This document shows, piece by piece, positions 11,742 through 58,017 of a stretch of DNA of 64,000 nucleotides (positions are counted from its first letter, which is position 1; each line of letters opens with the position of its first letter). A program made the position numbers and the translations under genes. The DNA lies in assembly GCA_009192285.1 (NCBI GenBank), contig WBVU01000015.1, positions 620,001 to 684,000 on the forward strand, written 5' to 3'. Origin of the DNA: Morchella semilibera. Taxonomy: Eukaryota; Ascomycota; Pezizomycetes; Pezizales; Morchellaceae. The notes under the pieces are model-generated. The model was not told the origin of the DNA and searched no databases. It saw only the letters and a program-made list of their open reading frames with translations.

Positions 11742-13338
11742 ATGACTGAAACAAACTCTGCCTATGCCCTTTCTCAGGCTCACAAGGAGGTAGGCTATCA
11801 GCTACAGTAGTTTTATCAAGTTGATACATAATGACTCACACTATCTATAGCTCATTGAGACTTCTCTTCGTGACAGTGACCCTGAGGTCCAGAAGATCAT
11901 GGTTATTTTATCTCATCTCATCTCATTTCATCTCAATTGCTAAACCTTAATAGGACCTCGAGATCAAGCGTCAGCGCGAGTCTATCCTCTTGATTGCCTC
12001 CGAGAACGTCACCTCCCGCGCTGTCTACGATGCTCTCGGTTCCCCTATGTCCAACAAGTACTCTGAGGGATACCCCGGTGCCCGTTATTATGGTGGTAAC
12101 GAACACATTGACTCAATTGAGACTCTCTGCCAACAGCGTGCTCTCCAAGCGTTCCACCTCGACTCTGAGAAATGGGGTGTCAACGTCCAGTGCTTGTCTG
12201 GATCCCCTGCAAACTTACAGGTGTACCAGGCTATCATGAAGCCTCATGAGCGTCTTATGGGCCTTGACCTTCCCCACGGTGGTCATTTGTCTCACGGATA
12301 CCAGACAGCTACCAAGAAGATCTCAGCTGTTTCAACTTACTTCGAGACTATGCCCTACCGTGTTGATCCTGCGACTGGTATCATCGACTACGACATGCTC
12401 GAGAAGACTGCTGTTCTTTACCGCCCTAAGACCCTCGTTGCCGGTACCTCCGCATACTGCCGCAACATTGACTACGCCCGTATGCGTAAGATCGCTGACC
12501 TCGTCGGCGCCTACCTTGTTGTTGACATGGCTCACATCTCTGGTCTTATTGCCGCTGAGGTCATTCCTAGTCCTTTCCTCCACGCTGATATCGTCACCAC
12601 CACCACCCACAAGTCTCTACGTGGTCCCCGTGGCGCCATGATCTTCTTCAGGAAGGGAGTGAGGAGCGTCGACAAGAAGGGAGAGGAAACCCACTACGAC
12701 TTGGAGAACCCAATCAACTTTTCGTAGGTTTTTATTCACTTCGGCTCTGGATTATGCTAACATTTCAAAGTGTCTTCCCTGGTCACCAAGGTGGTCCCCA
12801 TAACCACACCATCACTGCTCTTGCCGTTGCCCTCAAGCAGACCTTCTCTCCTGAGTACAAATTCTACCAGCAGCAGGTCATCGCCAACGCCAAGACCCTC
12901 GAGGAGGAGTTCCGCCGCATGGGATATAACCTCGTCTCTGGCGGAACCGACTGCCACATGGTTCTGCTCGACCTCAAGTCCGTTCGCCTCGATGGTGCTC
13001 GTCTCGAGGCTATCCTTGAGGCTGTTAACATCGCCTGTAACAAGAATGCTACCCCCGGTGACGTTTCCGCTCTCTCACCCTCTGGTATCCGTGTCGGTAC
13101 TCCCGCCATGACCACCCGTGGTTTCGGTGCCGAGGAGTTCAAGCGTGTTGCCCAGTACTTTGACACTCTCATCAAGCTCGCCAAGAAGATTCAGTCCGGG
13201 CTGCCAAAGGAGGCCAACAAGCTAAAGGACTTCCGCAAGCACGTTCTCTCTGGAGAGGTCCCGGAGCTCAATGAGATGAAGAAAGAGATCGCCGCGTGGG
13301 CATCTACTTTCCCTCTCCCCGTTGGCCCTGCCTCATAG
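11742..13338 (+). CDS. Serine hydroxymethyltransferase (cytosolic type)
   Basis: Four exons, 11742-11789, 11851-11901, 11954-12723 and 12771-13338, encode 478 residues. The enzyme is PLP-dependent and interconverts serine plus tetrahydrofolate with glycine plus 5,10-methylene-tetrahydrofolate. Family hallmarks are clear: [59 protein letters not shown] and the PLP-lysine segment [13 protein letters not shown], with the lysine at about residue 253. [12 protein letters not shown] spans the last splice junction. The absence of an N-terminal presequence before [16 protein letters not shown] suggests the cytosolic isozyme. Introns are 61, 52 and 47 nt with GT-AG ends; the second consists largely of a ctcat repeat. 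Codon use is strongly C-biased in the third position, typical of a highly expressed fungal gene. Confidence 0.97.
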
Positions 13339-21634: not shown

Positions 21635-23505
21635 TTAGTGGCTTCCCTCGCGTTCTTTCTCGCTATGAGACGAGGTGCTTGAGGCTCCCGCCGCTGCTCC
21701 TGTGGCTCTAGGGGTAGTAGAGTCGCCGACGCTCAACCCCGCCATTCCGGGCACCAGGCTAGGCACCTCCGAGGGTTGCGCAAAACTAGCTCCAGCGGGA
21801 GGCGCAGGAGAAACCGGGTATTTAACTCCATTCTCACTATTGAGTGTGCTAATATCGGTAGCCTCCATTTCCTCTGACACTGTCGGAACGCTGAGTGTGG
21901 CACCATTAGGTGTACCAGTACCGGGTGTGGACACACCGAGCCCCGTTTTTCTCTCCAGCCTTTCGTCTGCCCCCACGGAGCTGCTCACACTGCCAGCCCT
22001 GCTTCTCGCTAGAGCTGGGCTCACAAACCCGCTCCCTAACCCCGCACCGCTGCCACCAAAAGCCAATTCACTACCGGCCCAACAGCCAAACCTTCTCACG
22101 AGACCTCCTATCATCTTGACAAAGAACATATGCACCTCGACAAAGAGCTCTTCTCTGCCGACCAACTCCGCTAGCCCCTTCTGGCTGACGCCAAATCCAT
22201 TCTCGCCAGGCGGCCTTCTGCGGAGGAACCCTTCGGGCCCACGAGAAGCGACGGAAGAGAACGAATTGTTCAGCGACGGAGACACCTGTGCATCTTCCTG
22301 TTGCTTTTTTGCTGCCAATTGCTTGATGCGGTGCACTAGGGTTTCGAATGCCGAAACCACGTACTTCCATGAACTGACAACAATTTTTTGGTCAGGACAT
22401 ATACAAACTAGTGCATACGAGCGTCTTCCTCCCCGAGCTTTGGGATCAGGAAGTCGAAACACATAGGCAATTGTGTATCCTGCAAGAGGGTCCCCGAACA
22501 TCATGGGGCCTGTTTGAGCAGGTATCAGCTCGCAAGAGAGCGTGCGGACGCATGCCTGCCGCAAGGTAGTGTAATGTGCAGGCACAGTTGGAGCTCTAGT
22601 AGAGATATATGTCAATTGATGTGTATGCGTAGCTAGCCCGTTTGTGGAACTGCCTTGCGGAGCTCCGTCATCAGACGCAGGGGCGGAGTGAAAGTAGGTA
22701 TGCGCGCCAGGGGACGAAGAAAGATGACGAGCATCATCGTTCTGACGTTGAACAGCTCGGATATTCGAGAATTGGCCTTCTGCCGGCTCTTCCTCGTCTT
22801 CGCTCCCGGATGGGGTGCAGGCAAGAATTGATTCCTTTGTGCGCAGCGTAGGCCGCGTGACAGTACCATTGGAGGATGCTCGTTCCTGAAGGCCCTTGGG
22901 GAGGGTCATACTACAGTTCTTGCAGGTATCACCACCGGTGGAGACCCCTGTCGTGGAAGCCGCTGATGGACCTGCATATCCTGGACCTGCAGTAGCAAGG
23001 GAGGCACTAGCCAGAACAGGGCTCCTCGGTGATGGAGGGGGTGTCTCCATTGGGGTGGAGACATTAGATGATGAGGCTGAAGAGGTTGTAGTCCCACTAT
23101 GACTTAGGAGCGATGCGTTTGGACGGAGACTTGAGGCGCTCTGGGAGGCTAGGGTATTTAGGGCAGGATTACTCTTATTGAGATGGACCGAGCTGTTATG
23201 GGAGGTTTGAGGAGGTGTTGGGCCAAATGGTTGCTGCTGGTGTGGCGTAGAAGGGACAATTGTGCCTGAGCTTGCAGTAGAGGGACAGCATGTCGTGCAT
23301 ATCGGGGGGGTCACTTGAGTGCAGATGATTGATGTAGGACCATGGATCTCGCAGAAATGCGCGAGGGACACCTGGTGACAGGAGATCCCATTAGCTATGC
23401 ATAATCTACATGCAGGCCCGGGACTGGGGGGGGGGGTGTGAAAGAAGGGGGAGGGGGTTCGAGTACGATGAAATGTAGAAGGGATCAGCATACAATGAAG
23501 TTCAT
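21635..23505 (-). CDS. Lst7 / folliculin-like longin-domain protein
   Basis: The proposed model has a 12-nt first coding exon (23505-23494, MNFI), a 122-nt GTATGC...CAG intron and a long second exon (23371-21635), 582 residues in all. The joined N-terminus MNFIVSLAHFCEIHGPTSI follows the start of folliculin family proteins. Without the join the frame opens at an ATG at 23491 and adds 40 unlike residues. Lst7/FLCN with Lst4/FNIP acts as a GAP for Rag-type GTPases in amino-acid signalling to TORC1 at the vacuole or lysosome. The folliculin N-terminal region is visible in two blocks: residues 1-40, then YISTRAPTVPAHYTTLRQ, CELIPAQTGPMMFGDPLAG, YTIAYVFRLPDPKARGGRR and SYALVCICPDQ. The blocks are separated by a long Ser/Thr/Pro-rich insert containing CxxC pairs (CTTCC; CKNC). 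The C-terminal third is disordered, and no DENN domain is visible, as in yeast Lst7. Confidence 0.85.
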
Positions 23506-26500
23506 GATGGGCTAGTATCCCAAGACGGGAGAATTAAGAGCTCTCTTAGAATAGTAGCAGCTCTGTTTCCAGAGTGCGTGTGTATAGTAGTTGTGATGGT
23601 GGGGTTAGTTTCTGCTGGACTGATACTAATATTATTGCTTTTCTGGCGCTTTCTGGTGGTGGTTGTGCCTGATCCCTTTCCCTTTCTTTTCTCCGTCCGA
23701 TTATTTCCTCTGTGCGCTGCCGCCTTCCGTGAGTAGACTTTTTCTTACGAAAGGATGTCGCGTGGCGCGATGGTGATGGGAAATGGTAAACACACCCGCG
23801 CAAGTAGTAGGGGGTGGTGGTGGTGAGTGAATGAGTGTATAGGCAGGCCTAGGTGGGTTGGTTTGGGTCAAGTAAACGTTCTGTCGGTAGGTGTAAGAGG
23901 AAGTGGACAGGTAACGGTAGGTACTCTACTGAGAATAGGGTATTATGAGAGACCTAACAGCTAGACTACCAGTGACTAGTGCGTCGGACAAAGTGAGTCG
24001 ACAGCAAACAGGCGTATACAGACTGTCAGACCGGGGGGGGGGAAGGTATGAACCTTGAACTGGGTAGGGGAGGGGCGGCGGTTCAATGTCCCTTTTCTTT
24101 GCCTAATTAGATAAGAGGTACAGGTACTAACGGAACCTTTCTGCTGATGCTGATGCTGTGGTCGATTGGTAAGAATCAATACGTGGGACTGCTGTGCTGA
24201 TGTTCCTGATGCGAAACGTTGCCTGGTTAGATTGATTAATTGATTGATTGATTGATTGACCGACTGATTGATTGATTGATTGCTTTGGTCTTGATCTTGA
24301 TGAACTCTCGGTATCGGTACATGCAAAAAGTGTGTGCCTGCGTATGTAGGTGTATGTACCTCCTAGGCCTCGCCTTAAAACTCCGCTCACTCTCACTCAC
24401 TCACGTTTCTCTATCTCACTCACGCCTCTTATTTCTAATACCCTATCGACTATCTCTCTCCCTCCACCCTCGATTTGTCTGCGCCTGGTCTTGATTGATT
24501 GATTTCCCACCCTCCTCCTCCCTTCCTTCGCCGCACACTGATTTCTCGGTTTCACCCAATCGATCGTCTCCGGCGCTCCGGATGCAAACAATGAGAGGCG
24601 AGAGTTGATCCTTCCACAAAAAAGCAAATTTGTCCTGTGTACCCTGTAACTCTCATGCAAGTGTTTTTTTTTTTTTTTTTCCTTTCCTGCTGCTGACAAT
24701 TCGCTTCCCGGGGGATAAAGAAAAAAAGAATTCCCCTTCTTGAAACACCAATCGATAGGGTTAGCTGCAGCTATCAATCAACACGAAGGAGGGAAGACAT
24801 ATTGAAGGAAGCAAATTTACAGTGGAAAGGACAGACACGATATACCGGTGCGATGGTAGTCCGATGGAGGGGGGGTGTGCTGCCGGAACCCAGAGGGAGG
24901 GATGCAGCGGGAAAAAAAAAAAAAAAAGTAAAAAAAAAAAGAAAAAACGAAAAGAAAAAAAAAACCCCAATCTCCAAAAAAGCAAAAAATAGAAACTCTA
25001 CTTCTAGAGCTTAAAGGTTTACCTTACATACAGGAAGGTGAACTAAAGAAAAAAAGGAAATAAAAGGGAAAAGCCTCCCGGTAGAACACAACCGAGAAGC
25101 GGGAGCACAACGTTGGGCAGGCAGGGGAATTCAGATAAGAAAGTGTGAGTGAGCAAAGCTTTAGAGGCGTGGGCGTACTTGAAGTCTGAGCGTCAATTCG
25201 ATATTGGAGGTTCCAGAAGCTGGAACCCCTGCTCCCCTCCTTGACCATATTAAAACCTACACACTCGACCTCTGGACACACCATCTAATTCTAGACCATG
25301 GTCCAGACGAGGAAGGAGTCCGACCTTTACTGAGCCTTCCGCAGGTCGCGGAGTCGGGATGGAGGTCGGGATGTTGGCTAGGCTATCCGCCAACACCGAG
25401 GGGGATCGACAGTCGGGATGTGTCAGGCCCAAACCGTCAAGTCCCTATCGTGTCTGAGACTTATAATAATACTCTATCGTATTACCTAGTACTCGGTACT
25501 GCACGACACTTCATTACTGTACCACTCAACGATATTATTATTAGAGAGATCGTCCGGCTCAATTAATTGAGTTGATTTGATAGACTTGATTAATGAGTTA
25601 ATGAATTGATTGAGTACGTACAACGGCGCTTCGCCCGCAACAACAAATGTTCTAGAGATGGAGATTTCCCCCATACAAACCGACCACCACGGTTTACATA
25701 CTTTACATAGACACGTATTTCTGCAGTAGTCGAGTTCCTCACCGCAAACGGGGGAGTGTGAGTGCGTGTGAATTGTTTCCTTCACACCCTCACGCTCGCC
25801 CACCACCACACACCACACCACCCACCCACCCACCCCCTTTTTTTTTATCTTAATCTACCCCCATGCTCCCATGCATCGGGCTCAATTGTAAAGCCAACCA
25901 TCTCAACCGGGGAGACAGCTTACAGCGTGCATAATGTAGATTACTTTGTTTTACAGTACACCTTATCCTAGTCCTCGCGAATAGGGCTCAGGAACTCGAA
26001 GGGTCCCAATGTCGCAGAGTTCCTTAAACGGTGATCCAAAGTACCATTGTGTGTAAAAATAGATCATTTCACTTACATGGGGCGCAACTGATAAGTCCCC
26101 ATGTATCCGGGTGTGGTAGCTGGCGATAAGAGGTCAGAGACATTGGAAACGTACTCCTTGTGGCCTGTCTTTCCCACGGTCGCGACGGATATTTTTTCCG
26201 ACATTTCTGATCATTGACCCCATTGCTGACTGTCAGGGTTTATTCCTGTTTTTCTACTACGAAAGGGCAGCCAGCCAGCCAGAGAGCTTTCAACTCCTCA
26301 CCCGACCCGGGCCCCGCTCACTCGCAGCTCGCAACTTCTTTGTTGTCCTCATCGTCAACTTCCCCTCAAAGCAATCAAAGCAAGGAACTGCCAAAGAACC
26401 GCGCAAAAAAATAAAAAAAAAACAATCCATCAACCCCGCCCGAGCGAAGGGAAGGGAAGGAAAGGGTAAGAAAAGAAAAGAAAAAAAAGAATGGACCCAA

Positions 26501-29486
26501 AGTCTCTCATCTCAAATGACAGCGCTGATCGTACCCCGTTTCCTAAGGGAGGTCAATCAACGCATCGGAGGTTTCTTTTGGCACTCCCAGCAGCAGCTTG
26601 GGTTGTGGGGATCGTAGGTTAAGGTGAGCATCGAAGTTACATTTCAACAGGCTGGCTGGCTGACCACCCCACGTTTGTCCGCTCTAACGGTTTCTTAATC
26701 TCCAACAGGTTCGCTCGCTCACTGCTCTGGTGACCCGGGCAGGCATGGTCGGCGCGACATCGACGATTTGCACGCCGTCGAATCTATGGCTTCAAATCCG
26801 TCTATCCTGATTTCGGTTGCACAGGCGACGTATGAGCTTCGCGAGGAGGAAAAAAAAAAGGAAGGGACCGCTCCGAGCGAGCGACCATCGACATTACAGA
26901 GGTCCGACGGGTGGAAAATTGGTGGATTTGCCCTTCCGCTCGCTCGCTTCCGTTTTTTTTTTTTTTCTTTCTTTCTCTTCTCCCGCTGTAGATGATATTC
27001 TTACCTGAGAGGGTAATAATCTCCTATGGCCTTCTACCATAAGCATAATCGTTTTACAGCTGGCCACGCTTCCTGTTGCTGGGGGTGGAAAACCGATTTG
27101 GGTCGATTTCACTGTCAGAGATGGGGGATCTCGATCAGAATCAGGAAACAACTTGATTATTCGAATCCTTCTGCCCAATCCACTTAGCATGTGTTCATTC
27201 ATGTAACTGCCACATGAAGACCACAGCCACAACCTCGTGCACTGCGTGCAAATCAATCGGTCGCCGTTCCCAACGTCGAGGATACGCGAGAGCAGGGACA
27301 AGGGCTAGCTAGCAGGCTAGCAACATTGCCCGTTCTATTTTCCTGCTTTAGACTCACTGAATCTCGATCGTTTTTTAGTCTGTCGGACCGTGGGACCCCA
27401 GCAGGGTTGGGTTGGGCTCCGACGGCTTGAGCCGACCGACTGTAGAGTGTTCCCTCTCCCTCTCCCTCTCTTTGGAGCCTGGCTGGGGCCATGGGGGGGG
27501 GGGGAGGACTTGTTTTACTTTATCTATCTGGCACCGATGAGAATGAGATCTCGGAGAGTGTGCGCACTAACCCTCTTTCGACGAGCACTTTTTTAATTTG
27601 CGCGTTTCATTCCTTCTCTTCTCTAATGCCCTTCACGGTGCATAGTAGAGTGCCTCATGAAACGTTGCCTTGCTTTCCTTGATTTTGGGTTGATGAGTTC
27701 GTCACAGGTACCGGCACGCGCGGTAGATATTTGCTGCATTTTCATTTGTGTAGGCCAAGGGAAGTTTGGCCGGTGCCTGAATCCTCATGCCTTGAAGGTT
27801 GTTGGTATACCTAGTAAAACAGTCCAAACTCCAACTCTTGTTTGTCAATGATTGATTGACCTGTCAACCAAGTAGGTACCTAAGCCCGTCGGGATTCAAA
27901 TGTAGACTGGACCTTGGGGCTAGGGTGCTTTTCTTTAATAGCTAGTGCGAGCCACGAAAGGGCCGCCCGCCTGCCGGACGGACTCCAGCCCCCTTCACAT
28001 GGAAAGCTAATAAGCAAAAAAGCAAGTCTACTAATCCACCCCTAGCCCCAAGGGCCCCCCAGTATATATTTGGACCCTGACATACGGTGATCTAGGTTGG
28101 TTGCAATCAATCATCGATGAATAAAAGGTTGGGGGTTTGGTTCTACCAGGAACGCAATTTGTAAAGCTCTGATGATTGCTTTTTGACAGCCGGCATGCTA
28201 TATAACATACGGGGAAGGGGGGGAGAGCTTCGTTCTAATTTCCCTATTGAGCATGCTTGCGCAACTCAGGGTCCACAAATCCCATGCCTTACTGCGTGGT
28301 TTACATTTTTGAGTTTATCGGGGTAGGAGTGAGTGGGTGTGTGGTCCGTGGGGCTCCTCAGAGAAACGCGAAGAAAGATAACGCGGATCTAAGAATAGAT
28401 TAGGAGGTATGTATCTACTCCTAGAGTTAGAGTAGAGTACATACATGCAAGTTAGGGGATCATTTGGGGGGTTTGGGTCTTTTGAGGATGGGGGTCTAAT
28501 GTGAGGCTGGTTCTACAGGTTCTACATAGTGGGGTGGATTTTTATGGATTCGCGTGGTGGGGTTAATGAAGCCCTATCGAACGAAGGTGACAAGGGGGTT
28601 GGATGCGGAGGAGGATGTGAGACCCTGTAACTACTGTAATGCTCCCGGTTCAGATGTCTTAGTGTGGCTCGATTTACGCTACATGCTTGGCAACTTGGCG
28701 GCTTGGCATCGATTCCACGGTGTTAATCTAACGGAAGGGGGGGGGGGGAGGCAGGAAATGTCGCGGAACATCGAGATCGCACAATACTATGGCAAGGACC
28801 CGGGAGAGTCTTGCGAACGAGATGGCAGCAACAAGGGCAGATGGATGGGCGGAATGGAGGTACCAGCAGCACAACACACTGCAACGGTTCGGTGGATCAG
28901 GGCAGAGTCACTTAGATGAGATCAAAGGAGAGAGGTGGACTTGCTTGTTGGATCCTGGAGTCAGAACAAGAGACCAGTACCATCACTGGGCCGCCGCCGC
29001 CTCCAGGTAGTGGGCGACCACCAGACATCAGCCACAGTAGCTGCTTGCCTACGAGGACACAAGGCAATCAGCCTCTCGACCGTGTTCTTCTTCAACAGAG
29101 TTGAACAGAAAGAGATCACCTCGATTAGTTCTAACTGTTGATTCATCGAGTTGCCGATTCGATCAAATCAACGCTTATACCCTCTACTATTAATTCTATC
29201 GCATACAGCCTAGACCGTAGTAGCAGGCTAGCAGCTCCTGGAGCCTACATACATGTACGTACATGTAGTTAGCAGCTAGCTACTGCTTACATACATGTAC
29301 TGAAATACCATACCAATTCTAGAAGCAGCACCTTTCAACTGACTGCGTATGTACGAACACACGGACTACCCGTATCATACTACCGCGGTCAGTACACGAA
29401 AGCATCATAGGGTCCTCAGCGGAAATAACAACAACAAACGCCCTCAGAAGAGCAGGAACCATTGATACTCCCTCACTGACTGGAAT
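23506..29486. other. 6-kb region upstream of frq, no gene recognised
   Basis: It contains divergent promoter sequence for the Lst7-like gene at its left end. Homopolymer tracts (T18 near 24,663; mixed A runs near 24,910-24,965; T runs near 25,839 and 26,954) and many short open frames without recognisable similarity make up the rest. A tandem gattgatt-type repeat lies at 24,235-24,280. Three TACATGTA copies are at 29250, 29260 and 29292. In Neurospora the frq promoter also extends several kilobases, so much of this may be regulatory. Confidence 0.5.
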
Positions 29487-30755
29487 GCTGCAAAACGCTG
29501 CACGCCAAATCAAATAGAACCAGCGGAAAACAATTGAACAACAACAGAAACTCTGCAGAAACAGAATTTTATCCCACCCCTCTCCCTCCTTCCCATTCAC
29601 TACTCACATATCCTCACTCACCGTGCTCATTTCAAAGCCTTACCACCCCCCCCCTCCCCTTGATCTTCATAAGCCCCAAACTGCATCTCAAGCACAAGCA
29701 CAAACAACTCAGGCACTTCTGCTGCTGCTGCAAGAGCAATAAAAATAATAAGTACGTGACCATCAGGAACTACAGCTGCCATCAAAGAAAAATAAGAAAA
29801 TAAAACATATTTCACCAGAAGGAAGTCAGGCTAGGAGGGAAAAATAAAATAAAGAAAACCACAATTCAAAGATCCCACTGGCTAGAAGCCTCATCCGTCC
29901 AAAGAGAAAAAACCACTCGGATTTATATCGAACACGAACACCGCATAGATACGGAACACGACCCTCTCTACATAGCTTATTATTTAACCCTCTGCATTTG
30001 TTTCTCTACTACAGCCAACCCCCCCTCTCACCCTGAGTTTCCCCCTTCTTGTGTTCCCAGTACCTATTCACCGTCCTTCTGTCCCTGTTCCCCGTTCTAC
30101 TAGTTTTGAATCCGCCCGCTCCCCACGCAAAGCACCTTGCAGCAAATCTACCCTCCCCCCCCCCCCCCCCAAATAATCCCTAACAACCTTACCTACTATC
30201 ACTCACTCCACAACCAAATTTACCCACACTCTACCAGCACACCCTCACGCACCTCCGCTATCCCTACCTACCATTATCTTCTAGGCTAGGCAAATAAAAA
30301 AAGGACTCGCTTGGCTCTGCCTCTGGTCCGACCAGATCTTGAGACACACACGCAGACGCAGCAGACGCAGCAGACCCTACCTACTTCAAGATATCTATCA
30401 ACGGCGTGGCTCCTTGCCTACTTCTCCCCTCGATCGCCCGCCACCGCGATCAATCTACAAATATTTCTCCCCCAACACAACTGTGAACAGTAAGCCCCGA
30501 AGGTCTTTCTTAGCTGGAAAAATAAGAAGAGGAAAAAAAAAAAGTCCCGAGCCCCTCATCACGCCCGTTTATCATCACCATACTTCAAAAAACACCTGCT
30601 TTTATTCTTCCTCAGTAACCACGTGAAAAAATAAATTAAAGCGCCCAGCGGTATTTCTCCACAAGAAATAAAAACAGCTGCCCCGGGCATAAATCTGGAG
30701 GAACATTCTTCCTCTCAGTACAAAGCGTTAACTCTGGCTCAATACGAAGCCGACG
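29487..30755 (+). promoter_or_regulatory. Probable long frq 5' leader/promoter, ATG-free for 1.27 kb
   Basis: Reading the plus strand by eye from the ATG at 29484 to the next ATG at 30756, I find no ATG in any frame, although CAT occurs at least 18 times. The sequence is A/C/T-rich and G-poor with poly-C (30161-30174) and A-rich stretches. This asymmetry is expected of a transcribed leader that must not initiate translation early, and Neurospora frq has a 5' leader of comparable length. It includes a CACGTG hexamer at about 30621 and a candidate untranslated intron with GTAAGC at 30490 and CAG ending at 30615. The transcription start was not determined. Confidence 0.5.
30431..30455 (+). promoter_or_regulatory. 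Candidate light-responsive element (paired GATC-type repeats)
   Basis: CGATCG (30431-30436) and GCGATCAATC (30446-30455) form two imperfect GATC-containing repeats 9 bases apart. The White Collar complex in Neurospora binds imperfect GATC/CGAT-type repeats in the frq light elements. The match is to a loose consensus from memory; location about 400 bases before the start codon is plausible. Confidence 0.3.
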
Positions 30756-30797
30756 ATGACTACTCGATCAACACCGGTCAGCCGGAACTTCACATAA
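30756..30797 (+). CDS. Upstream ORF in the frq leader (13 codons)
   Basis: ATG at 30756, with A at -3, opens MTTRSTPVSRNFT and stops at TAA 30795-30797, 45 nt before the frq start codon. It is the only ATG-initiated uORF between 29487 and 30841. Neurospora frq carries several uORFs that affect its temperature-dependent translation, so a regulatory role is plausible. The peptide itself looks featureless. Confidence 0.45.
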   Translation: MTTRSTPVSRNFT

Positions 30798-30841
30798 ACT
30801 TCGATCACCATACCAATTCAAGATCCCATCACCAAGAAAGC

Positions 30842-31166
30842 ATGTTACCAATTATGTCCACTCAACAGCAACAACCCTCCCAACCCGATCCTGGCTGCCC
30901 ACACCTGAGACACGACTCCTCTGAATTGCCTGTCAAATCGTCCTCCACTGCTCTTGCTTCTCCTCCCTCTTCTATGCAAGACCATCATCACCATCGACAT
31001 CAACGCCAAACGGCACTTGAAGATTCAAATTCCCTAAGGCATCAACATCAAGGCCCTATGGAAAACACAACTACTACAACACAACTACTACCACACCTAC
31101 CTACAGAATCAATACCTTCAGGAAGACGAGAAGGAAACAACAATATGGCGGGAATGTTGGACCAAG

Positions 31167-31199
<33 letters not shown>

Positions 31200-34100
31200 T
31201 CACAAGAGGCGGAAGGCCTCCACCTACACATCACGGAGACAGTGGTTTTGCGAGTGGCGATGCTTCAATGTTCCCAAGTCCTCCACCTGAAGACGCTAGA
31301 GACGAGGCCATGCTCGGGTGGAAAACGAAGTCTAAATCCTTTGTAGGGAGCGCGGCGTCAGGAGCCGGTGACGGAGCCGACACGGCCTCAGGTGAGATCG
31401 ACCTGGACAGCATCGCAGATAGCGGGGCTCACAATAGTTGTTCGGAAGATTGGTTCAGCAGTTTTAATCGTGATGTTGGAGGAAATAATTATGCTTCACT
31501 AGATGGTATGATACGATCCTTCTTTTCGGGATAGCGTCTTGGCAGGGGTTTCTCGATTCAAATGATGCTTACGATTATATTTCTTGTGTAATAGACGATC
31601 CTCCTTACTTCCTTCCAAATAATGCCTACTTCCTTCCAAATAATGCCTACAAGAAGAGCACCCCCGGCAGCATTTCTCGATACTCTCGTCTCAACAGAAT
31701 GTATCCAGGTAAAAGTTCAAGAGCTGGTATGAAGCGTCTTCATCCTTCCGGTTCGATAGGACTCATCGACAGTACAGAAGAAAGCAATAGCGATAGCTTC
31801 CGAAGCGTCATTGATGACCTTACTGTCAAGAGTATGTAACAATACTACCCTATCACAACCTTTAATGACAATGTGCTAATCCGTTTATTTTACTTGTCAG
31901 ACCAAAAACTCAAGAAGCGTCTAAAGAAACTCGAAGGTTTACATGGCGGTGGTTTGGCCGAAGAGAAGTTGTTCGAGGTCCGGATGCATGGACTGCCATT
32001 GTACGACCCTTCGCTTCACCCCCACGTCTACCGTTTATGGTTACTAATGTCTTTATTAGACACAAGAAGCAGGAGCTTGAACGCTTGCTGCAGGGATTCG
32101 CCTCAACACTCGACAGCGATCAATCACCCGTCTCATCATCAAAGAAATCTCCGGAAACTTCTTTGAGTCCTAGCTTACCATCAATTAACCCTTCTACCTC
32201 ATCCCTTAACATTGCCGACTCTGCGTATGCCTCCAATTCACGGTCTGGGACCACATCGGTTGCACAATCATCCCATATCAAGACAAAGTCTCATGTTGCT
32301 CGCTCTTTATCGGCAAGCGACAAAATGTCTGGTGGTAGTGTAATGTCCTCACCACTAGCAGGGCCTAATACAGAAAGGGCAAAGATGAAGGAAGTTGTAC
32401 GGAAGCTGGAACAACTATTCACTGGTTACAAGTCAAAGAACTCCGGGTCCACACCTGAGAGCACCAATTCTGACCGCTCTGGTTCAAACGTTGGGAACGT
32501 CATACCCGAGGAGGGTGCGCGAACAGCCTCGATAATGAACCCCCTTCAAGATAGACAGGCAGCTGAATTCGGTGAACCTATAGTTGTCTTGCAGTCAGAA
32601 CCGCACGCTATCGGATCAGACGGGGTTACGGACCAGCGCCCTACCAGGCCCAAGGACCTCGACCCCAAGCGTTTGACAAAGGCTGAAGACAACATTGAAT
32701 ATCTTTCCAATCTAACGCACAGTGGAGTAGCAGGAACCAGAGCTGAGGGATTGGGAGATGGATGGTTTTACTTGAATCTGTTAATCAACATGGCACAGCT
32801 GCACACAATCAGCGTCACTGTCCCATTCGTTAAGAAAGCCATCCTCGGTACTAGTGAGAAGTTGGAACTATCTTTGGATGGGACAATGGTGAGGTGGAGA
32901 GGTGGTTTGGAGGGTACGAGGTTGAGCAGTGAGAGTTCATCGGGAAGTGGGGTTGACAGTGCAAGTATCACCAGTGATGGAAGCCCTGAGGATTGGGATG
33001 GTTTGAGGAAAAGGTCACCAAATGATTCAGATGGAAACCCAATGTCAATTGATCCAACATCAAAATCGGGATCACGAGGAAGAGCGAGCTCATCAGGCCG
33101 AAGATTCCCAGCACTTTCCCCACAAAGCATGAGCGACAAATTCCACTACAAGCCCATGTTTGCCCAATCTCAGTCCTTTGAGGATGATTCCTCTAGTACT
33201 CTCAGCACCTCAATGGGATCTTACCCGCGTGGAAGTTCGGATGAGGGGGGTATGACAAGTGTGACAAAAAAGACGACTCCTTTGGACGGGCCAATCATTT
33301 ACTATGAAGGCGGAAAGTTCTGCACGGATCTGACTACTCAAGTTGTGAAAGATGGCAAACACCTCACGGGATTCCCATACGAGAGATTCACAAACAACCC
33401 AATTGGGGAGAAGCCGGCGCACGTACCATCAAGCCCAATCACCAAAAGGGAAAGTCCGCTGTTCTCAAAGGATGCGCCACCACCAATGCCCTCGGACAAT
33501 GATTCCATGAATATTGATTCTGACACTGATGTGGAACTCCAATTTTCACCGCAATTCTCTTCAACTAACGACCCTACCCACCCTCCACCAATGGAGTTGG
33601 AAGCTTCAGGAATCGGCGGTGTGCTTCCGGATGACAACTTTGCAATCAACGTGCAAAAGAGGCATTTTTTGCTCCCGCAAAACGCCAACGGTGCACTGCC
33701 TTGTTCAAGGAAGAAGCTGTCCAAATCGAGAATTCTGAGGAAGATCTCGCATTCAATTCCGAAATCGTCGATCGATGCTTTCCAACAGAACGAGGACTTG
33801 GACGAATCGGGAGAGGAATCATCCGATGAGGGATCCGAGGGTGGGAGCAACTCGATTGTAGATTCTGGAGACGAGCGTTCTGTCGAATCAGATGCCGATG
33901 ATTCAGCAGACTCAGATTCGGAATCCTCGGAACCAGCCGTCAACACCAACACCACCCGCCGAAGATTCCATCGTCATAAGCTCATCAACCCCGAGCTTGT
34001 GTCGGCACACATCCTCAGACTTGAACCTTCACAACTTCCTCCGGCAAGCTACGGATGCTGGCCACCTTCTGATGAAACCTCTTCTGTGGATACAGATTCC

Positions 34101-34625
34101 GGTGCCGACCCGCTCTCCTCCGGCTCGGAAGGCTCCTACCTCCGCGCAATATTAAGACAAGCAAGCAATAACGCCGGCTACGGTTCAGTTGACGAGGACG
34201 ATGACATGAGCCACGGTATCCTTTGCGCCAACGGAATGAAAATATACCGACCTGCAGTACCCAGGACCGAAAACGGCGAGGCCGGTTCATCTGCCGCTAC
34301 TGCTGGCGACGCTAGTGGTTACTCAACCCCTGCAGTTGTTCCCGTCAATGAGGCCAATATGGTTCAACTACCGACAACGGGCATCATGGATTTGGGCAGA
34401 GATGATGGCTGGGGTGACAGCCCAGATAGTGGAACAAGTGGGGATCAATTCTCGTCTTCTGCTGGGGATGACGAAGAAGAGGGTGGCTTTGTTGGGATGG
34501 GTGATAGATCATCCTTGAAGAGGGGGCACTGTTCTGTGGCCTCGCCATCGGGGAGCCCTATGGGGCTTGTCCGCAAGACTAGGAAGAGCGAGCAGCCTAT
34601 TTCGTTGGATGATGATTCTTGTTGA
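30842..34625 (+). CDS. frq: Frequency clock protein (FRQ)
   Basis: Four exons, 30842-31505, 31595-31831, 31901-32000 and 32060-34625, encode 1188 residues (Neurospora FRQ has 989). FRQ is the negative element of the fungal circadian oscillator: with FRH and casein kinase 1 it represses the White Collar complex and is progressively phosphorylated. Conserved blocks are in order: DWFSSFNRD (about 203); DDPPYFLPN (about 222); the coiled-coil SFRSVIDDLTVKNQKLKKRL (287-306); EEKLFEVRMHGLPLHKKQEL (about 320-340); KEVVRKLEQLFTG (about 443-455), corresponding to the CK1-docking helix FCD1; RPTRPKDLDPKRL; DGWFYLNLLINMAQLH (about 567), near FCD2; FHYKPMF; FCTDLT; and IGGVLPDDNF (about 852). Acidic Ser/Asp/Glu stretches around 915-960 are PEST-like. 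Additions include a Gln run (110-119). Third-exon boundaries are fixed by frame: ...HGLP-L-HKKQE. Confidence 0.95.
31608..31649 (+). repeat. 21-nt tandem duplication inside frq exon 2
   Basis: The unit TACTTCCTTCCAAATAATGCC occurs twice in direct succession, giving the peptide YFLPNNA twice right after the second splice junction. The duplication is in frame, so it lengthens FRQ by seven residues without disrupting it. Confidence 0.85.
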
Positions 34626-37106
34626 TTTTTGAGTGCAAAGTTTTGGCTGCCTATTTTAGCGTGTCTGGGACTGTTTCTTGGGGGTTTTAGCGAAGGATTT
34701 CCTGTTTCTATTACTTTTTTGTTTCCATGCTTTGATTTGATATCATGGGGTGTCCTTGGAGCGTTTTAGGAGTTTATTATTTCCTATTATTTATATATCT
34801 GCATTGCATTTTTGAGTTATTTTCATACCCATTAGCTATTAGCTTTATGAATTTGTCCTGTCTGGGTTTATTTCACTGTTTCTGGGGTTTTCTCTGTTAT
34901 CTGTTCCTCTATTTCTATTTCTATTTCTATTTCTCTTGGATAAATTTATATAAAAGAGGCTCATGAAGGCGCATTTTTGTTGTTAGTTATTTAAGGGCTC
35001 TATTAGCAAATAGCCAAATGCGTGATGGAATTTGATGGGGGAAGTTTTTTTCTTTTATGCCTGGAACTTCATGGGTCTCTTTTTATCTCTTTCGCATCTC
35101 ATATCAGGGGTCGGGATTGGGGGGTGTTGGAGTTACATTTTTTTTTTTTTTTGCTCACTTCGAGGGTCATCATGATATGTAGTACATAGTAATCTCGAGA
35201 AGGAAATCAATCCAAAATTATGTTCTATTCTAATCTCCTCTCCCCAGGGAGAAGGGAAAAAAAAAGGGGGGGGGGTGTGTGTGATTCAATGTATATAGAT
35301 ACCTTATTTATCTGAGGGAAAACAAGAATAGGAAAAGGAGATTTGGTTGAGCACAGTCTTGTTTTGGTTTTGGAATTGTTCGATTCGATCCGATCACGTT
35401 CGATTCGATCGTTGGCTCGTTTACAGCCAGACGACGTACGTTCCTTCAGCTACTCACCCCGTCCGCTAGTAAACTTAAGCCCCCTTCTTAAGGATTTCAA
35501 TTTGGGCTGGGACGAATGAACGTCTAGGGTCGGGAAGGCTAGGAGTAGCCTTCTCTTTTCAAGCCAGTCCAGTCCAAATAAAGTAGCGTGAGGGGAGTCA
35601 GTGCAAATAAGTACATGTACACACTACCGTGGACACCCTACTGTCATGTAGGCCCACTCAGGTTTAATCTAACAACAGTCACAGCGGATCTCTCAATTCT
35701 ACTGTATCGGACAATTACTCTGTTTCGATACGTGTGTGTTTAGGTACATACGCACAGAACTAACGCCTGCAATCACATTGGCACAGTGCGCATATATAGT
35801 CACTCGGTCTAGAGTAAGTAGGTGGATATGTCGATCAGATGAGAACGAGCAGGAGGTGCTCATCACTCTTGCTACTCACGTAACCAGCATAAAGCAAACA
35901 TCGCCAGTTCTCAAGATTGGTTGCGTATTTAATACCGCTGCTCCTGCTGCTGTTGCTGCTGTTGTTCCTGCCTTCGTTTATCCCTTCCCCCTTCCCTGGC
36001 AGCTGTTGATTACAGCTTAATGCTTACGAGCGAGTCACCGCCCATCGTTTGAATGTGCCTGATATCGCACCCCGAATTCCGATTCATCGGTGCTCAACCT
36101 ATCAACCTAGATCCCTATTCTATCAACACTCTTTCTTTCTCTCTCCTATGTTTAGCCGCGCACCTGTCCTGTCTTTAGACTCCCAACCTCATGGCCCCAC
36201 AATATCCAGTGACTTTTAACGCGCTTGGTTCGGTATGGGACCCGGTATTGTCGCCACCTGGCTTATCCTGTTTGCTCCGCTCTTTTTCCCAGGCTGGGAA
36301 ATTGGTACATCGATGGGGCTCAAGATCTGAGATCGATCGATGAGACCTGCACCCACGTGGTTAGGGTAGAGGTTGGACGTCATATCATCTCGTTGATCCC
36401 ATTGGAGCGCGGGGATAAATGGGGGGACCCTGAATTGGGGGTACATATGGGGGCATGTCCTTTAAAGGAAAATCCCGGGGTTATGTGGGTAAGGGGAATT
36501 TGGTTCAGGGTTGTTGGAAGTGTCCGGGGGGGGGGGTTAGGGGTATGTTTCCGGTTGTGATTCTCGATCGGAGGTTTGAGGATTTATCGAATTTGAAATT
36601 GGTGTTTTCGCGCTACCGTACCGGCATATCCTACTGGAGCAGGCGACACTTGGATAATTAGTAGGTAGGTACTCACTAGTTAGCAATGATCTCTCTTTTT
36701 TTTTTTTTTTTTGTTTTTATCCGTTCGCTTTTTTTTTTTTTTTTTTCGCTTCAAGAGCAAGTAGCGTATCCCCGGTAAAACAAAGAAGGGAAAAAAGAAA
36801 AAAAAGAAAAAAAAGCAACTCCGATTTTCCCCACCCTCCTCCTCTCACGATTACTGTTGGGGGGGAAACGGTACGGGATGACGTCCGCCGGGAGCAATTA
36901 AAGGCAGCAGAGCAAGTTGATCGGGACGCTCGAGTCTTTTGTGTAGATTGACCGTTTATCCCGATGGATGGGGGATACTGTAATCATCATCAACAGCTTT
37001 CCGATGGAGGCTTACACATGTAAGACAATAACGATTTTTACTTTTTTGCTCGCCTGTTTCCTTGGGACCGGCGGATCATGGGTCAGTCCATCATATCATG
37101 GTATGA

Positions 37107-41241: not shown

Positions 41242-42710
41242 TTACGCTTCACTCCCAAACTCCTGCGTCCAATCATCACTCTTCTTGACATCCTCCTTAC
41301 TAACCGTAGGCCTACTATTCTTGATTGCCTTTACAAAGTCCTTCAGCACCAGCGCCGGCTCCTGCAGCTCATCCGGATTCACATCCATCCACGTCATTTC
41401 CACCGCACCAGAATCGCCGGGACTGCAAGGGGTGAGTTTGTCCCCGACGCGCTTGTAGTGCGTAGCCGTCTGGATCTTGCGTACGGGCTGCATAAGAGCG
41501 TCCTGCACGGCAATGTTAATGTCGGAGCCCGTGTAGCCTTCCGACATCTGCGCGAGCGTCTTGAAGTCCTGGGGCGTCAGATCGCAGGGGGTGCTGCCAA
41601 CAGAGAGCTCAAACATCTTCATGCGGCCTGGCATATCGGGGACTGCGATGTGGATGCGGCGTTGGAATCTAGTGTGGCGGGGTTAGCGGTGTGTAGGTGA
41701 GGGGGGAAAAGGGGTTTCTCACCGACGTCGGATGGCAGAGTCGAGCTGCCAGGGGATATTGGTGGCGCCGAGTACGAGGACACCGGAGGTGTCGTTACCG
41801 ACACCGTCCATTTGGACGAGCATCTCGGTTTTGATACGACGGCTAGCTTCGCTCTCGCCTTCGCCACGGGTACCGCAGAGGGCGTCGACTTCGTCAATGA
41901 AGATGATTGAGGGCTTGTTCTCACGCGCCATTGTAAAGAGCTGTTTTACGAGCCTGTCCCGACCGCCGCATATCAGCACCCAGCACCCCCAATTGGTGCT
42001 CAAACCGGAGAAACTGACCTTTCACTCTCTCCCATCCACTTACTAACTAGATCACTACTTGAAACCGAGAAGAACGTTGAATTCGCCTCGGTCGCCACCG
42101 CCTTCGCCAAGTAACTCTTTCCCGTCCCCGGGGGGCCATACAGCAATATCCCCTTCCACGGCTTCCTCTTCCCCGTAAATAGGTGCGGGAACTTGATCGG
42201 TAATATAACGGCCTCCTTGAGGGCCTCCTTCGCGCCCTCCAGCCCCGCCACATCCTCCCACCTCACGTTCGGCTTCTCCGTCAATATGGCACCCGCTAGC
42301 GCGCCGCGCAGCTTCTTGTTCTCGGGGTCCACCGAGTCCTCGTCCTGGTCGGCCTTGCCGCCGCCGGTGGTGCTGCTACCGTTGGCGCCCAGCTTGCTGG
42401 GCTTTTTCTTGTTGGCACTCTCGTTAAGGTGCGTCTTGAGCTTCTCGGCGCGCTCCATGTACTCGCCGGCTTTGGCGCGGATGGACTCCTTCATCTTGGG
42501 ATTCTTCTCCCATTTTAGCGCGAGCATGAAGCATTCTAGCGCTTGGTAGTACTGCTGATAGGCAACCTCGTAGTTACCGGCGGTGTCCTCTTCTATGGCT
42601 TTTTTGACGATTGTGATGGCTTTCTGCGCGTGGACGCGTTAGCTCTAATTAGCTGTGAGAGGGGGGGCAGGGGTAGGGAGGCATACGCCAACGAAATCGG
42701 TGTTCGACAT
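41242..42710 (-). CDS. VPS4: Vacuolar protein sorting-associated protein 4 (AAA ATPase)
   Basis: Four exons, 42710-42687, 42623-42019, 41953-41723 and 41668-41242, encode 428 residues (yeast Vps4 has 437). Vps4 hexamers disassemble ESCRT-III filaments on endosomes and at other membrane-scission sites. The MIT domain occupies about residues 1-75 ([20 protein letters not shown], with the first splice junction after residue 8). A linker follows, then the AAA domain with [20 protein letters not shown], Walker [14 protein letters not shown] (about 170), pore loop [14 protein letters not shown], Walker [12 protein letters not shown] (about 230), [15 protein letters not shown] and the arginine fingers in AIRRRFQRRI. 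The C-terminal part has the beta-domain insert and the Vps4 C-terminal helix ([18 protein letters not shown]). All introns (63, 65, 54 nt) have GT-AG ends. Confidence 0.97.
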
Positions 42711-52596: not shown

Positions 52597-54170
52597 CTAC
52601 GCCCCCAGCGGAAAATCAATGACCTGCAGCCTTCTATCCGGGTACGACCCAGATTGGCGGAAGAACACAGAAAGGATGTTCTGGTCCTTCAAGCGCGCCT
52701 TGTCAAACAGGGGCTCGGTATCGAAACCCGTGCCGGTCCACAGGAGCTTCCAATCCTTGAACGAGCCTGCAACGGTCGAGTAGTAGATATATACCTCTGT
52801 GTTGGTGTTAGATGGGATCAGAGCGATGAGTTCGCCGCTGTTGGCGATTGCGAGCTTGCCGCGGAGGCCAGTGGCTGTTGGCGCGCCGAGGCCGCTGATC
52901 GAGATGGCATTTCGGGTCCATATACCTGTGGATATTAGCTAAATTCGGGGGAGAGAGGGGAGGGTAGCATACCAGTCGCGCTCCTCCAATAGTGATACCA
53001 CAAATACGTGCCGCTCGTGGTCTCCCTATTCAGCACATGGAACCTCCCCGCACTATCCGCAATCTGCCCCTCCTGGTTCAGAATACCGCTCCCCTGTGGA
53101 ATTGTGTAAACGATGCTACCACTTGTAGTTGGCCCAATGGTTGTGCCGGCGCTCATGCTGGCCACTGTTGTGCCGGCATTGTTTTTCCACGTCTGGCCCT
53201 TATCATCGGAGTAGGCGTAGCCAAGGTCGTGGTTGGTCACGACGTCGGGAGTCTCACGCCAAGTCCAAGAGACGGATATACGGCCGTTGATGTAGTCAAA
53301 GCCGTTGATGTAGGCATTGTTGTCGCTGCCTTGAAGGTAGCGCCCGACTTGTGACCAGGAGTGGGTAGTGGAGCTGTACAGGTAGATATAGGAATCACCA
53401 GCGCCAGAACTGTCGGGGTTGTTAGAGTTGACCGGGAGAAAAGTGAGGATTTGTGACTTACGCCCCAATACGCATCTCAAAAAAGAGGTCGTTGTCGACC
53501 CGTTCGAAGCGTGGGTACGTCACGGGTGTCCATATGCCTGTTGCCCCTGGGAGTGCATTCAGGGTGCTGCCAAAGAGCGCCGTGGTCCATGTGTACGATG
53601 CTGGGTTTGTTGCGACGCCCTGCTGCGAGACACGGTAGTGGAGGGGAACATCGTGGTGGTCTACTCACATAAGTTAGGGCCAATGAATCACCTATGGAGG
53701 GGAAAGAGGGGGGGGGGGAGGGTGTACCATAGCTTAAATGAATAGTGCCGTCCCCGGTAGAAATGCCGAGTGAGATAGTGTTATGCCCGTCAATGGTGGT
53801 CTGGACATAGTCGGTAAATACAATGAACTCCCACGCGCCTACAGGACTGATCTTGCGGCGGCCGAGAGTCACGAGGTTCTGGGCGTAAGTGCCCGAGGTG
53901 TTGTAGAATGCTGCGTATTGCCTATGTAAATGTCAATGACCTGATATAGCTATTATTATTATTATTACTGGGGTGAGTTATGCATATAGCCACCGACCAT
54001 CCATTATAAGAAGTGATAGCACTGGTTTGAAAGCTTCCGCCATTAAGACGCGCGCTGCCCTGAGGATCAATACCCAGATTGGTCGTGGTAGTGCCCGTTA
54101 TCGAGAGTCCAAGCACCACCGAGACCGCAGCGAGGAGCCAACAGGTGAGGAAGCTGTGAAATCTAGCCAT
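52597..54170 (-). CDS. Secreted BNR-repeat beta-propeller protein (BNR_4-like), possible polysaccharide lyase
   Basis: Five exons, 54170-53998, 53921-53728, 53660-53462, 53409-52973 and 52925-52597, encode 443 residues. A signal peptide is clear (MARFHSFLTCWLLAAVSVVL then GLSITG). The mature part has NGWQYAAFYNTSGTYAQNLV, the conserved DGHNTISLGI and TIHLSYDHHDVPLHYRVS, then Asp-box-like WTWRETP and YSDDKGQTW, and YHYWRSATG. This is the pattern of the BNR_4 family of fungal and bacterial secreted propellers. Some related seven-bladed propellers are polysaccharide lyases acting on uronate-containing glycans (for example a Fusarium rhamnose-glucuronate lyase), so action on plant or algal polysaccharides is plausible but not shown. 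The first intron uses a GTCGGT donor, fixed by frame at NG-W-QYAAF. The fourth intron is only 47 nt. Confidence 0.85.
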
Positions 54171-55351: not shown

Positions 55352-58017
55352 TCAATACTCGCCCAATGCTGCGAGTTCCTGCTTAACCTGGTCTTCCGTT
55401 TTGATCTTCTTGAGTTGGGTTTCCTCAAGTTTCTCTCCACTGGCCAGTCTCGCTTTCAGCTCCTCGATAGCTCTCAACTTCTTGTTCAGGCCTCTGAGTT
55501 TTTTCTCATTACTTGAGGGAGTATCCAGCGCTTCCGGTTTAGGAGACTCACTCTTGGGTGGAACCTCCACTGCTTGTGGGGGCGCCAATGTCTCGGCACC
55601 AGATCTTGAAGGGTGCTGCGAATGCGTGTTGCGATCGCTTTTACTCTTGGACCTCTTAATCCCGTCCTGGTCTCGGTTGTTGCGACTCTTGCTCCTAGGG
55701 TGAGGACTACGGTTGTCCCTGCGAATTTGGTGTTCGCGCCCGTCGCGACCCTGGCGCTCGTTGGTACCATTGGCAGGGCCAGAGGGGGCTCCGGGAACCC
55801 CCGGGGCACCCTGCTGCTGTTGTTGCTGTTGCTGCTGCTCGAGTTTCGCCTTTTTAGCAGCTTGCTTCTTCTTGTTCTTGAGCGCGGTTCTGGTAAGATT
55901 ATCCTCATCACCAGTGCCTGCTGTGGGCAATGATACGCCGCCACCTGGAGCCGCTCCAGGAACAAACTTCTCAGCTGGCGCAGCACCGGGGACCTCCCGT
56001 CTCTTCCCTCTTCCAAAACCATTAGCGAGTCCAGAACCAGCTCCGTTCGCATATATGTGCGCCGCACCACCCTCATCTTCACGCTTGAAGTGAAGTGGAG
56101 TTTCCGTGTTACGGGCATGCGGCGGGCGGTACGCACCAGTCGGCTTTGGTGCTGTAGTGGCAACGTGCGTAGCTGCCGACGGGTGCGGGGCCGGCGCAGG
56201 CGGGAGTGGGTTTGGAAGTGGGTGCGCAGAAGCAGCCTGGGGACGCCAAAAGACGTTGTAGAGCTCATCGATTTCACTGGAGTACATCAACTCTCCAGTA
56301 TAGTGCCAAATCTTGACACCATTGTCGACCCTCAGCCTCGGGCTAGTAGTGGCGGTTAGGATATGCCTTCCGTCAGGGCTCCACTCGCAAACGCTGGCAT
56401 TAGAGGCCTCAATCGTGCAAATCTTCCTCATTCCAGTCTGCCTATCGTAGATATCCATTGATCCGTTCAAATTCCCAAAACCAGCAACAAGAACAAACCT
56501 TGCATGAGGTGAAAACAAGATTGTGTTTCTTGGTCCTGGCGCGAGCTGATGGACGGCTCTAGCGCGAAGGTCGAAAATGGTCGTTTTAGCAGGCATGAAT
56601 CCGTAAACCACACCAAATTCCCTGGAATCAGCCGACCAGGAGACATCATGAATTGGGCCTTCCTTATCTATAATGAAATGTTGCATTAGTGGCGGGCCCT
56701 GTCACAGAACTATAAGGATTTATACATACCAAGAGAAACGCGGCAGTCATAGTTACCAGCCACGGTAATCAAGTAAAGGTTGGTCTCTCCATAATAGCTC
56801 TTCCCGGTCTTATCTGCGTCAGTCTGCGCAAAGATGAGAACACTTGTTCCCATCGCATTCCACTTCAGTTGAATCCTGTCTGCCTTGAAGAAACTTTTCT
56901 GGCACAGAATAGTCTCAAATTGAGGAACCTCGTAAACCCTGACCTGGGCCGGTTTCCCCTTAAAAAAAACCAAGTCAGCATCCCTACTTTGCCTTGAGTA
57001 ATCAAAACTAATACCTTTCGTTCCGGAATAAACACGGCAACAGAATAGTTCTTGCCGGGGCTCAACGCAAATTCCGTGACGCCCTCGACGTAGAGATGAC
57101 CCCAAACAGTAGCCATGTTGTTAGCCTCGAAAAATTGGACTTCGTTCGAGACGACTCTTGCGCAGTATTTTTCATCGTGTGTGTACTGAAGGTTCCATCC
57201 GGACTGGGACTTCTGGACGAACGCTGCAACATGCTCTGTAGTTGATGTTCTCCACACCTTGAGGTTCTTGGTTGCGCTATTATCTTCTTGCTTGGCTTTT
57301 GGGGGTGTTAGTATTCGGAGAAATGAAGACTCTGCTTAAATGGGGTAACATACTAGGTCTTTCCCAGGTAATAATGTAGCTTCCGTGAGGGGAAAATCCA
57401 ATTTCATGGACATTCTGAGCCGGGAGAGTGCTGATAACTTCACCGGTATCCGGGTTGGATATTTTGACGCTGTTTGATATGAGTCAGCACAAATCCTGAA
57501 ACGAGATACCCACAGGATTCGGGTGGTGGAGCTCGGTCTGAAGCAGGAGAACAGTACTCTTCATTACAAGCCCAGGCAAAGTATTTGCCATCTGGGCTGT
57601 AGACACAACATCTATTGTTGGTCTCTGGCCTGTAGTAACACAGGAGGGTTAGTTCTCGGCGTTCAGGATCATGGTAGCAAACCACAGGTGGAGCAGCTCG
57701 CGATACAAAGATTGGGGCATATATCACCTGCTAAATCCAGACTGCGGCGAATACTGGGGATATGCTTCCGTTAAGCCGATAGTCTTCTGTGACCGGACTG
57801 GAGGGGCAATGTCAGTTCAAAAATTCCATCATTTACAGTTTCATCACATCATCACTACAAATGCACGGAATCCGACCAAGGCGCTAAACTACGATAGGCA
57901 TTATCTTCAGAAGATACGAATTCCGCTGAATCCGCTTTCTAGTTCTATATTTCATGCGGGGGTCTCGGAGGAGGTTCACTTACAAGCAAACTGGGTCTGT
58001 ACGGTAGTGGATGCCAT
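55352..58017 (-). CDS. Eukaryotic translation initiation factor 2A (eIF2A)
   Basis: Seven exons, 58017-57984, 57797-57728, 57629-57558, 57469-57354, 57295-57015, 56958-56730 and 56667-55352, encode 705 residues (yeast YGR054W has 642). eIF2A is a WD-type beta-propeller protein implicated in non-canonical initiator tRNA delivery. The start is MASTTVQTQFA, followed by CCVYSPDGKYFAWAC, EIGFSPHGSYIITWERP, LKVWRT, QSGWNLQYTHDEKYCARVVS and ADKTGKSYYGETNLYLI. Next come VSWSADSREFGVVYGFMPAK, FGNLNGSMDIYDRQTG and SVCEWSPDGRHILTATTSPR with LRVDNGVKIWHYTG, all typical of the family. The C-terminal part contains TGAYRPPHARN, a Gln run, a basic RS-like segment and the conserved helix LRGLNKKLRAIEELKARLA and TQLKKIKTEDQV. 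Six introns keep frame exactly; exons 1-4 are small (34, 70, 72, 116 nt). Confidence 0.95.

Follow-up and report, generated by a model that had tools for sequence, protein, structure and literature searches.

A complete copy of the clock gene frequency in Morchella semilibera, with White Collar-type motifs in its flanks

The stretch of Morchella semilibera DNA analysed here (the window; 64 kb, positions 620001-684000 of contig C12 in a genome of 56.76 Mb and 23 contigs) contains a plus-strand gene at 30842-34625 that raises two questions: is this a whole frequency (frq) gene, and does it belong to a clock? Sequence comparison confirms that the locus carries this fungal clock gene in full. We also conclude, with high confidence, that it is the frq of a filamentous ascomycete and would supply the negative limb in a clock built on White Collar feedback.

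Membership in the FRQ family is based on the curated Pfam profile (PF09421), which the whole predicted protein of 1188 residues matches with E=4.3e-79 and 267.2 bits, the curated cut-off being 26.6. When the protein is cut into seven pieces, five of them match the profile in conserved order, and two exceed the cut-off on their own. The first of these matches, residues 280-353 (31768-32117, with introns 2 and 3 inside it), covers profile positions 121-194 with E=2.7e-20. It contains the coiled coil, which is split by intron 2 (31810-31932) and in which the positions I294, L297, N301, L304, L308 and L311 follow each other at heptad distances of 3, 4, 3, 4 and 3, as read from the sequence; its role in dimerisation is a prediction. 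The same piece includes EEKLFE (residues 321-326) and HGLP (residues 330-333), together at 31960-31998. Next comes VVRKLEQLFTG (residues 446-456, 32394-32426), the expected casein-kinase docking helix of FCD1, within a piece that matches profile positions 231-341 with E=2.5e-5 and 23.1 bits, below the cut-off when taken alone. Residues 523-636 (32625-32966), containing FCD2 and the core, match positions 418-537 with E=6.7e-34; the assignment of FCD1 and FCD2 to their respective pieces is one that we presume from the first-pass annotation and from general knowledge of the family. A second core block, residues 731-759 (33249-33335), corresponds to profile positions 626-654 (E=5.1e-4, below the cut-off alone), and the expected FRH-binding block, FFD, residues 845-894 (33591-33740), to positions 748-797 (E=6.1e-4, likewise below the cut-off alone). 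The last of these blocks includes GGVLPDDNF (residues 853-861), whose DNF is encoded at 33633-33641 and, reading by block rather than by alignment, probably occupies the place of the N. crassa tripeptide DHF 774-776, replacement of which by AAA is reported to abolish FRH binding (PMC12796302). The first-pass annotation had identified the protein as FRQ from several blocks in order, among them the coiled coil, EEKLFE, HGLP, VVRKLEQLFTG and GGVLPDDNF; each has now been located in the translation, and the identity is upheld by the curated profile together with the ordered functional blocks.

Judging by profile position, the region from FCD2 to about residue 760 would roughly correspond to the region around residues 490-658 of N. 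crassa FRQ, described as part of the ordered core in an AlphaFold model and as having given a rigid spin-label pair (PMC10963029). A winged-helix-like fold of this conserved core may be entertained as an idea. A sequence search of the PDB yielded a single weak match, to the La protein 1s29 (E=0.59, residues 558-615, 32730-32903), which was set aside as chance, as was a sub-cut-off Pfam match of one piece to Attachment_P66 (E=0.027). The N-terminal 220 and the C-terminal 284 residues, searched separately, match no Pfam family at E<=0.1; by eye, the C-terminal part looks acidic and serine-rich, and counterparts in it of the PEST-2, NLS and hyperphosphorylated C-terminus of FRQ would be putative. 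One scan of viral contigs for relatives of the protein found none.

The gene model consists of four exons. Exon 1 (30842-31505) extends from Met1 to the first base of codon 222 and encodes the low-complexity N-terminus, which has no Pfam match of its own; its frame is open upstream from 30635, and 30842 is the first in-frame ATG. Exons 2 (31595-31831) and 3 (31901-32000) are followed by exon 4, which continues to the stop codon (32060-34625). The three predicted introns, all GT..AG and 59-89 nt in size, are intron 1 (31506-31594, 89 nt, GTATGA..AATAG), intron 2 (31832-31900, 69 nt, GTATGT..GTCAG) and intron 3 (32001-32059, 59 nt, GTACGA..ATTAG); introns 2 and 3 have a CTAAT branch site, while no site of the form searched for turned up in intron 1, the weakest of the three. 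The splice sites are predicted ones, and the predicted join of 664, 237, 100 and 2566 nt gives a coding sequence of 3567 nt, or 1188 amino acids, with zero internal stops. All three introns are required for the open frame, since introns 1 and 3 shift the frame, and intron 2, if left unspliced, brings in a stop codon at 31837-31839. The join between the first two exons is outside the Pfam-matched region, and its support therefore comes entirely from splice consensus and frame. The four-exon structure proposed at first pass, with its start at 30842 and its stop ending at 34625, stands as an open joined frame. So does the claim of a protein about 200 residues longer than its Neurospora counterpart (1188 versus 989 residues in N. 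crassa, a difference of 199), with a glutamine run, encoded by (CAG)10 at 31169-31198 in exon 1, and an N-terminus whose richness in serine and glycine is visible by eye. Exon 2 also contains a perfect 21-bp in-frame tandem duplication (31606-31650, YFLPNNA twice), perhaps a recent one. The GC3 of frq (0.48) is the lowest among eight genes compared, and we make no claim about its codon use because folliculin (0.50) and prenylcysteine lyase (0.52) are close.

The duplication and the long simple-sequence N-terminus might be expected of a pseudogene or a diverged paralogue. We consider this reading highly improbable and already disfavoured: the frame is open over all 1188 codons, and the genome contains no FRQ match beyond four, two per copy, at the C12 locus and in its copy on contig C13, without an internal stop in either. 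The C13 copy, also counted against the pseudogene, is identical to C12 across the whole 64-kb window, and is for that reason uninformative on selection; over a neighbouring 60 kb, the two contigs differ by 98 gap openings and 4 mismatches. Contigs C9 and C10 form another near-identical pair with paired matches, and both pairs may be either assembly duplicates or the contents of two nuclei. FRQ was found in none of 14 control genomes, of which the named ones are prokaryotes, so that this has little bearing on fungi.

Besides the complete gene, whose conserved blocks come in the family's order, the genome contains homologues of WC-1, WC-2 and FRH. Genome searches returned nine matches to GATA fingers and four to PAS_9. 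On the minus strand at C12:566.8-569.7 kb, and again on C13, PAS_9 and GATA matches are found about 1.3 kb apart, in a stretch with a LOV domain containing GRNCRFLQ and a zinc finger CANCHTRVTPEWRRGPSGKRDLCNSC; we take these two features to mark WC-1, and name the C12 gene accordingly. On C4, a PAS_9 match precedes a GATA finger by 0.8 kb in a gene that is presumably WC-2. Three DSHCT helicase matches lie on C3 and on C9/C10, and from their signatures we presume the C3 protein to be MTR4/FRH-like and the C9/C10 one SKI2-like. Homology with WC-1, WC-2 and FRH/MTR4 is thus proposed on domain content. Photolyase/cryptochrome matches are on C19 and C1.

We infer the splicing, the rhythmicity and every binding and regulatory step, and the clock would be expected to work as follows. 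The White Collar complex (WC-1/WC-2) would bind GATC-type elements in the flanks and drive frq. The product would dimerise through its coiled coil, hold casein kinase 1 by FCD1 and FCD2 and FRH by the C-terminal block, and, together with FRH, would direct casein kinase 1 to phosphorylate the White Collar complex and thereby silence it. FRQ itself would be slowly phosphorylated and then destroyed, which would end the silencing.

The presence of parts is, however, no proof of a clock, because in Verticillium dahliae frq is reported not to be rhythmic although the conserved parts are there (PMC7493669). The Morchella gene might, by the same precedent, be a genuine orthologue of frq with a function in light response or in development, but without a self-sustained clock in this species. 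Such a role would be in line with the report that Pyronema frq cycles and is synchronised by light but is not entrained by it (PMC4592989), and with the lack of a VVD-type second LOV protein, as one genome search with the LOV domain found two matches, one to the C12 gene named WC-1 and the other to its counterpart on C13. Against it stands the presence of the main FRQ blocks and of all three partners, WC-1, WC-2 and FRH, and we regard a clockless frq as unlikely, although deserving of serious weight. The assignment to the negative limb of a clock remains the reading that we prefer.

Among the closest known systems, N. crassa FRQ (NCU02265) has the same order of coiled coil, FCD1, FCD2/core and FRH block, as judged by the Pfam profile, and a similarly long low-complexity remainder; the Morchella protein differs in its greater length, its glutamine run and its long exon 1. 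The frq of Pyronema confluens (PCON_09365) and FRQ of Arthrobotrys oligospora likewise represent the family in early-diverging filamentous ascomycetes, and FCD1 and FCD2 are described as strongly conserved in Pyronema (PMC4592989). VVD is reported as not found in Pyronema either (PMC3778014). In Morchella sextelata, frq, frh, wc-1 and wc-2 are likewise listed within one genome (PMC13300869).

The long frames of WC-1 end near C12:569.7 kb and frq starts at C12:650842, so that the two genes are about 81 kb apart on one contig; the wc-1 locus is thus about 50 kb to the left of the window. Given the size of the genome, a randomly placed partner gene would have a chance of about 0.3% of being no more than 81 kb from frq in either direction, a figure to be read with the proviso that the proximity was noticed post hoc. 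The N. crassa genes, with locus tags NCU02265 and NCU02356 (PMC3778014), are also on one chromosome but recombined in 11 of 69 progeny (PMC1949147), a difference from the 81 kb seen here. Since the two genes share a chromosome in N. crassa, their linkage is plausibly old, again with the caution due to a post hoc observation. In Pyronema, the two locus tags, PCON_09365 and PCON_03119, have widely separated numbers (PMC3778014), which is neither for nor against linkage because that assembly is in scaffolds. The N. crassa statement was the sole one on wc-1/frq linkage found in the literature that we consulted.

The flanks of frq are dense in words of the White Collar type, of which GATCGA and the gapped GATNC-CGATN have been published (PMC7493669, PMC3210137). 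GATCGA has 40 matches in the window, or 36 after merging overlaps, and 11 of these 36 merged sites fall within the gene and its two 2-kb flanks (four upstream, two in the gene, five downstream), where 4.4 would be predicted from the length. Three GATCGA-type sites just upstream of the ATG, at 30430, 30764 and 30801 (30430-30806), are candidate proximal elements, and CGATTCGATC at 29155-29164 on the plus strand, 1.68 kb upstream of the ATG, is a candidate distal element; further GATCGA-type sites are at 35831, 36331-36340 and 36564 (35831-36569). The alternative is that these clusters reflect chance or local composition and are not White Collar sites. Simulated sequences attained 11 sites in 0 and 5 of 1000 cases under Markov orders 1 and 2, which argues against chance, but in 48 of 1000 under order 3, which leaves room for it; similarly, among 180 hexamers of the same composition, GATCGA has the highest count inside the locus, but is fourth, not first, by the ratio of inside to outside.

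A wider test, over 134 kb of C12 with 61 merged sites and 1260 placements at 100-nt steps, gave a similarly divided result. The two 2-kb flanks together have nine merged sites, and only 6 of the 1260 placements reach nine, all six no farther than 0.8 kb from where frq begins. Among 2-kb windows of the whole 134 kb, the one downstream of frq is the richest (0.7% of windows reach its five sites, and all of these overlap it), a point against chance, but the upstream 2 kb is not rare, as 3.6% of the 2-kb windows reach its four sites. When its gap is limited to 3 nt, the gapped motif matches once in the window, within exon 4, which favours chance. Widening the limit to 15 nt gives nine matches: 29140 upstream of frq, 31555 in intron 1, 33805 and 33891 in exon 4, two overlapping ones at 35382-35410, and, elsewhere in the window, 3975, 38640 and 45684.

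CGATTCGATC has 74 matches genome-wide, including 29155, 35381 and 35401 at frq, all three repeated on C13; it is not enriched overall, because a reversed control yields 90, which again favours chance, but by eye comparison of the 74 matches frq, in both copies, is the only place with at least two of them no more than 20 kb apart. None of the 74 is near the wc-1, wc-2 or photolyase/cryptochrome matches. One, at C3:654255, precedes the first long MTR4/FRH-like frame (C3:656196-659781) by about 1.9 kb and was considered too weak to be claimed as an FRH-side element. With the motif words having been picked after looking, we rate chance or composition as a possible explanation falling somewhat short of even; the dense motifs around frq are, on this post hoc evidence, likely to be White Collar binding sites.

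A cluster of such words lies 753 nt past the stop codon, at 35378-35410, where a 13-bp direct repeat, GTTCGATTCGATC, occurs twice, the copies being 20 bp apart. Six CGAT/ATCG words crowd into 40 nt there, and clusters as dense were produced by 0, 1 and 19 of 1000 simulations under orders 1, 2 and 3, the first two values speaking against chance and the third for it. Among 60-nt windows of the 64 kb there is one other place of equal density, 36306-36365, which is also downstream of frq. We tentatively propose the repeat as a candidate light element (qLRE) of an antisense transcript, qrf, an assignment made post hoc that we would sooner expect to fail than to hold. For Pyronema, the available account describes no spliced antisense RNA, and unspliced antisense may occur there (PMC3778014).

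The region before the start codon is poor in ATG. There is one in the 1042 nt upstream, where the dinucleotides predict 6.5 (a count this low in 7 of 1000 simulations), and there are two in 29400-30841, a stretch rich in A and C, against 11.5 expected (1 of 1000 as low); in the nearest 542 nt, one against 4.1 expected is not significant (76 of 1000). Such scarcity is suggestive of a long leader from which upstream starts are kept out. It contains one upstream ORF, of 13 codons, in contrast to N. crassa frq, which has several. Pyronema frq has three putative ones (PMC3778014). At the start codon of frq, alternative splicing is known from both N. crassa and Pyronema. In Morchella, a scan for an intron across the ATG found donor-like sites at 29752 and 30490 and a single acceptor passing the filter, at 30014, so that the consensus lends no support to such an intron, although one may exist; in Pyronema, a light-dependent intron over the start codon is described (PMC3778014).

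A six-frame Pfam search at E<=0.01 found nothing in 23.56-30.64 kb or in 34.63-41.12 kb, which leaves frq as the one gene seen from 23.6 to 41.1 kb, although another with short exons or without a Pfam domain could be missed. The neighbours, both on the minus strand, are a folliculin gene (21638-23533) and a VPS4-like gene with MIT and AAA domains (42003-42638, with frames visible by eye to about 41.2 kb). Pfam also recognised prenylcysteine lyase (6715-8235), serine hydroxymethyltransferase (11954-12724), a BNR_4 protein (52938-53519), eIF2A (55355-56701) and a CLP1-type P-loop protein (60531-61793). ARAGORN found four tRNAs in the window, three of them also detected by Rfam.

FRQ is known from Sordariomycetes, Leotiomycetes, Dothideomycetes, Pezizomycetes, Orbiliomycetes, Lecanoromycetes and some Eurotiomycetes (PMC4592989, PMC9508176, PMC13300869). 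The first-pass remark that it is sparsely studied outside Sordariomycetes and Leotiomycetes was thus overstated; such FRQ proteins are already published, and the gene described here therefore adds to a known family. A broader proposal, which we put forward as improbable, is that wc-1 and frq belong to an ancient clock region whose linkage filamentous ascomycetes have kept, and also that matched White Collar sites drive both frq and its antisense partner qrf, with the antisense arm predating the Sordariomycetes. The presence of frq in full, together with its partners, in a single well-assembled genome provides a comparison point for how the fungal clock came together, and the closeness of wc-1 to frq and the candidate light element downstream each amount to a simple comparative test across Pezizomycotina. 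If the linkage does not recur, this would be an ordinary frq gene; if it does, the positive and negative limbs of the clock would have been inherited as a block.
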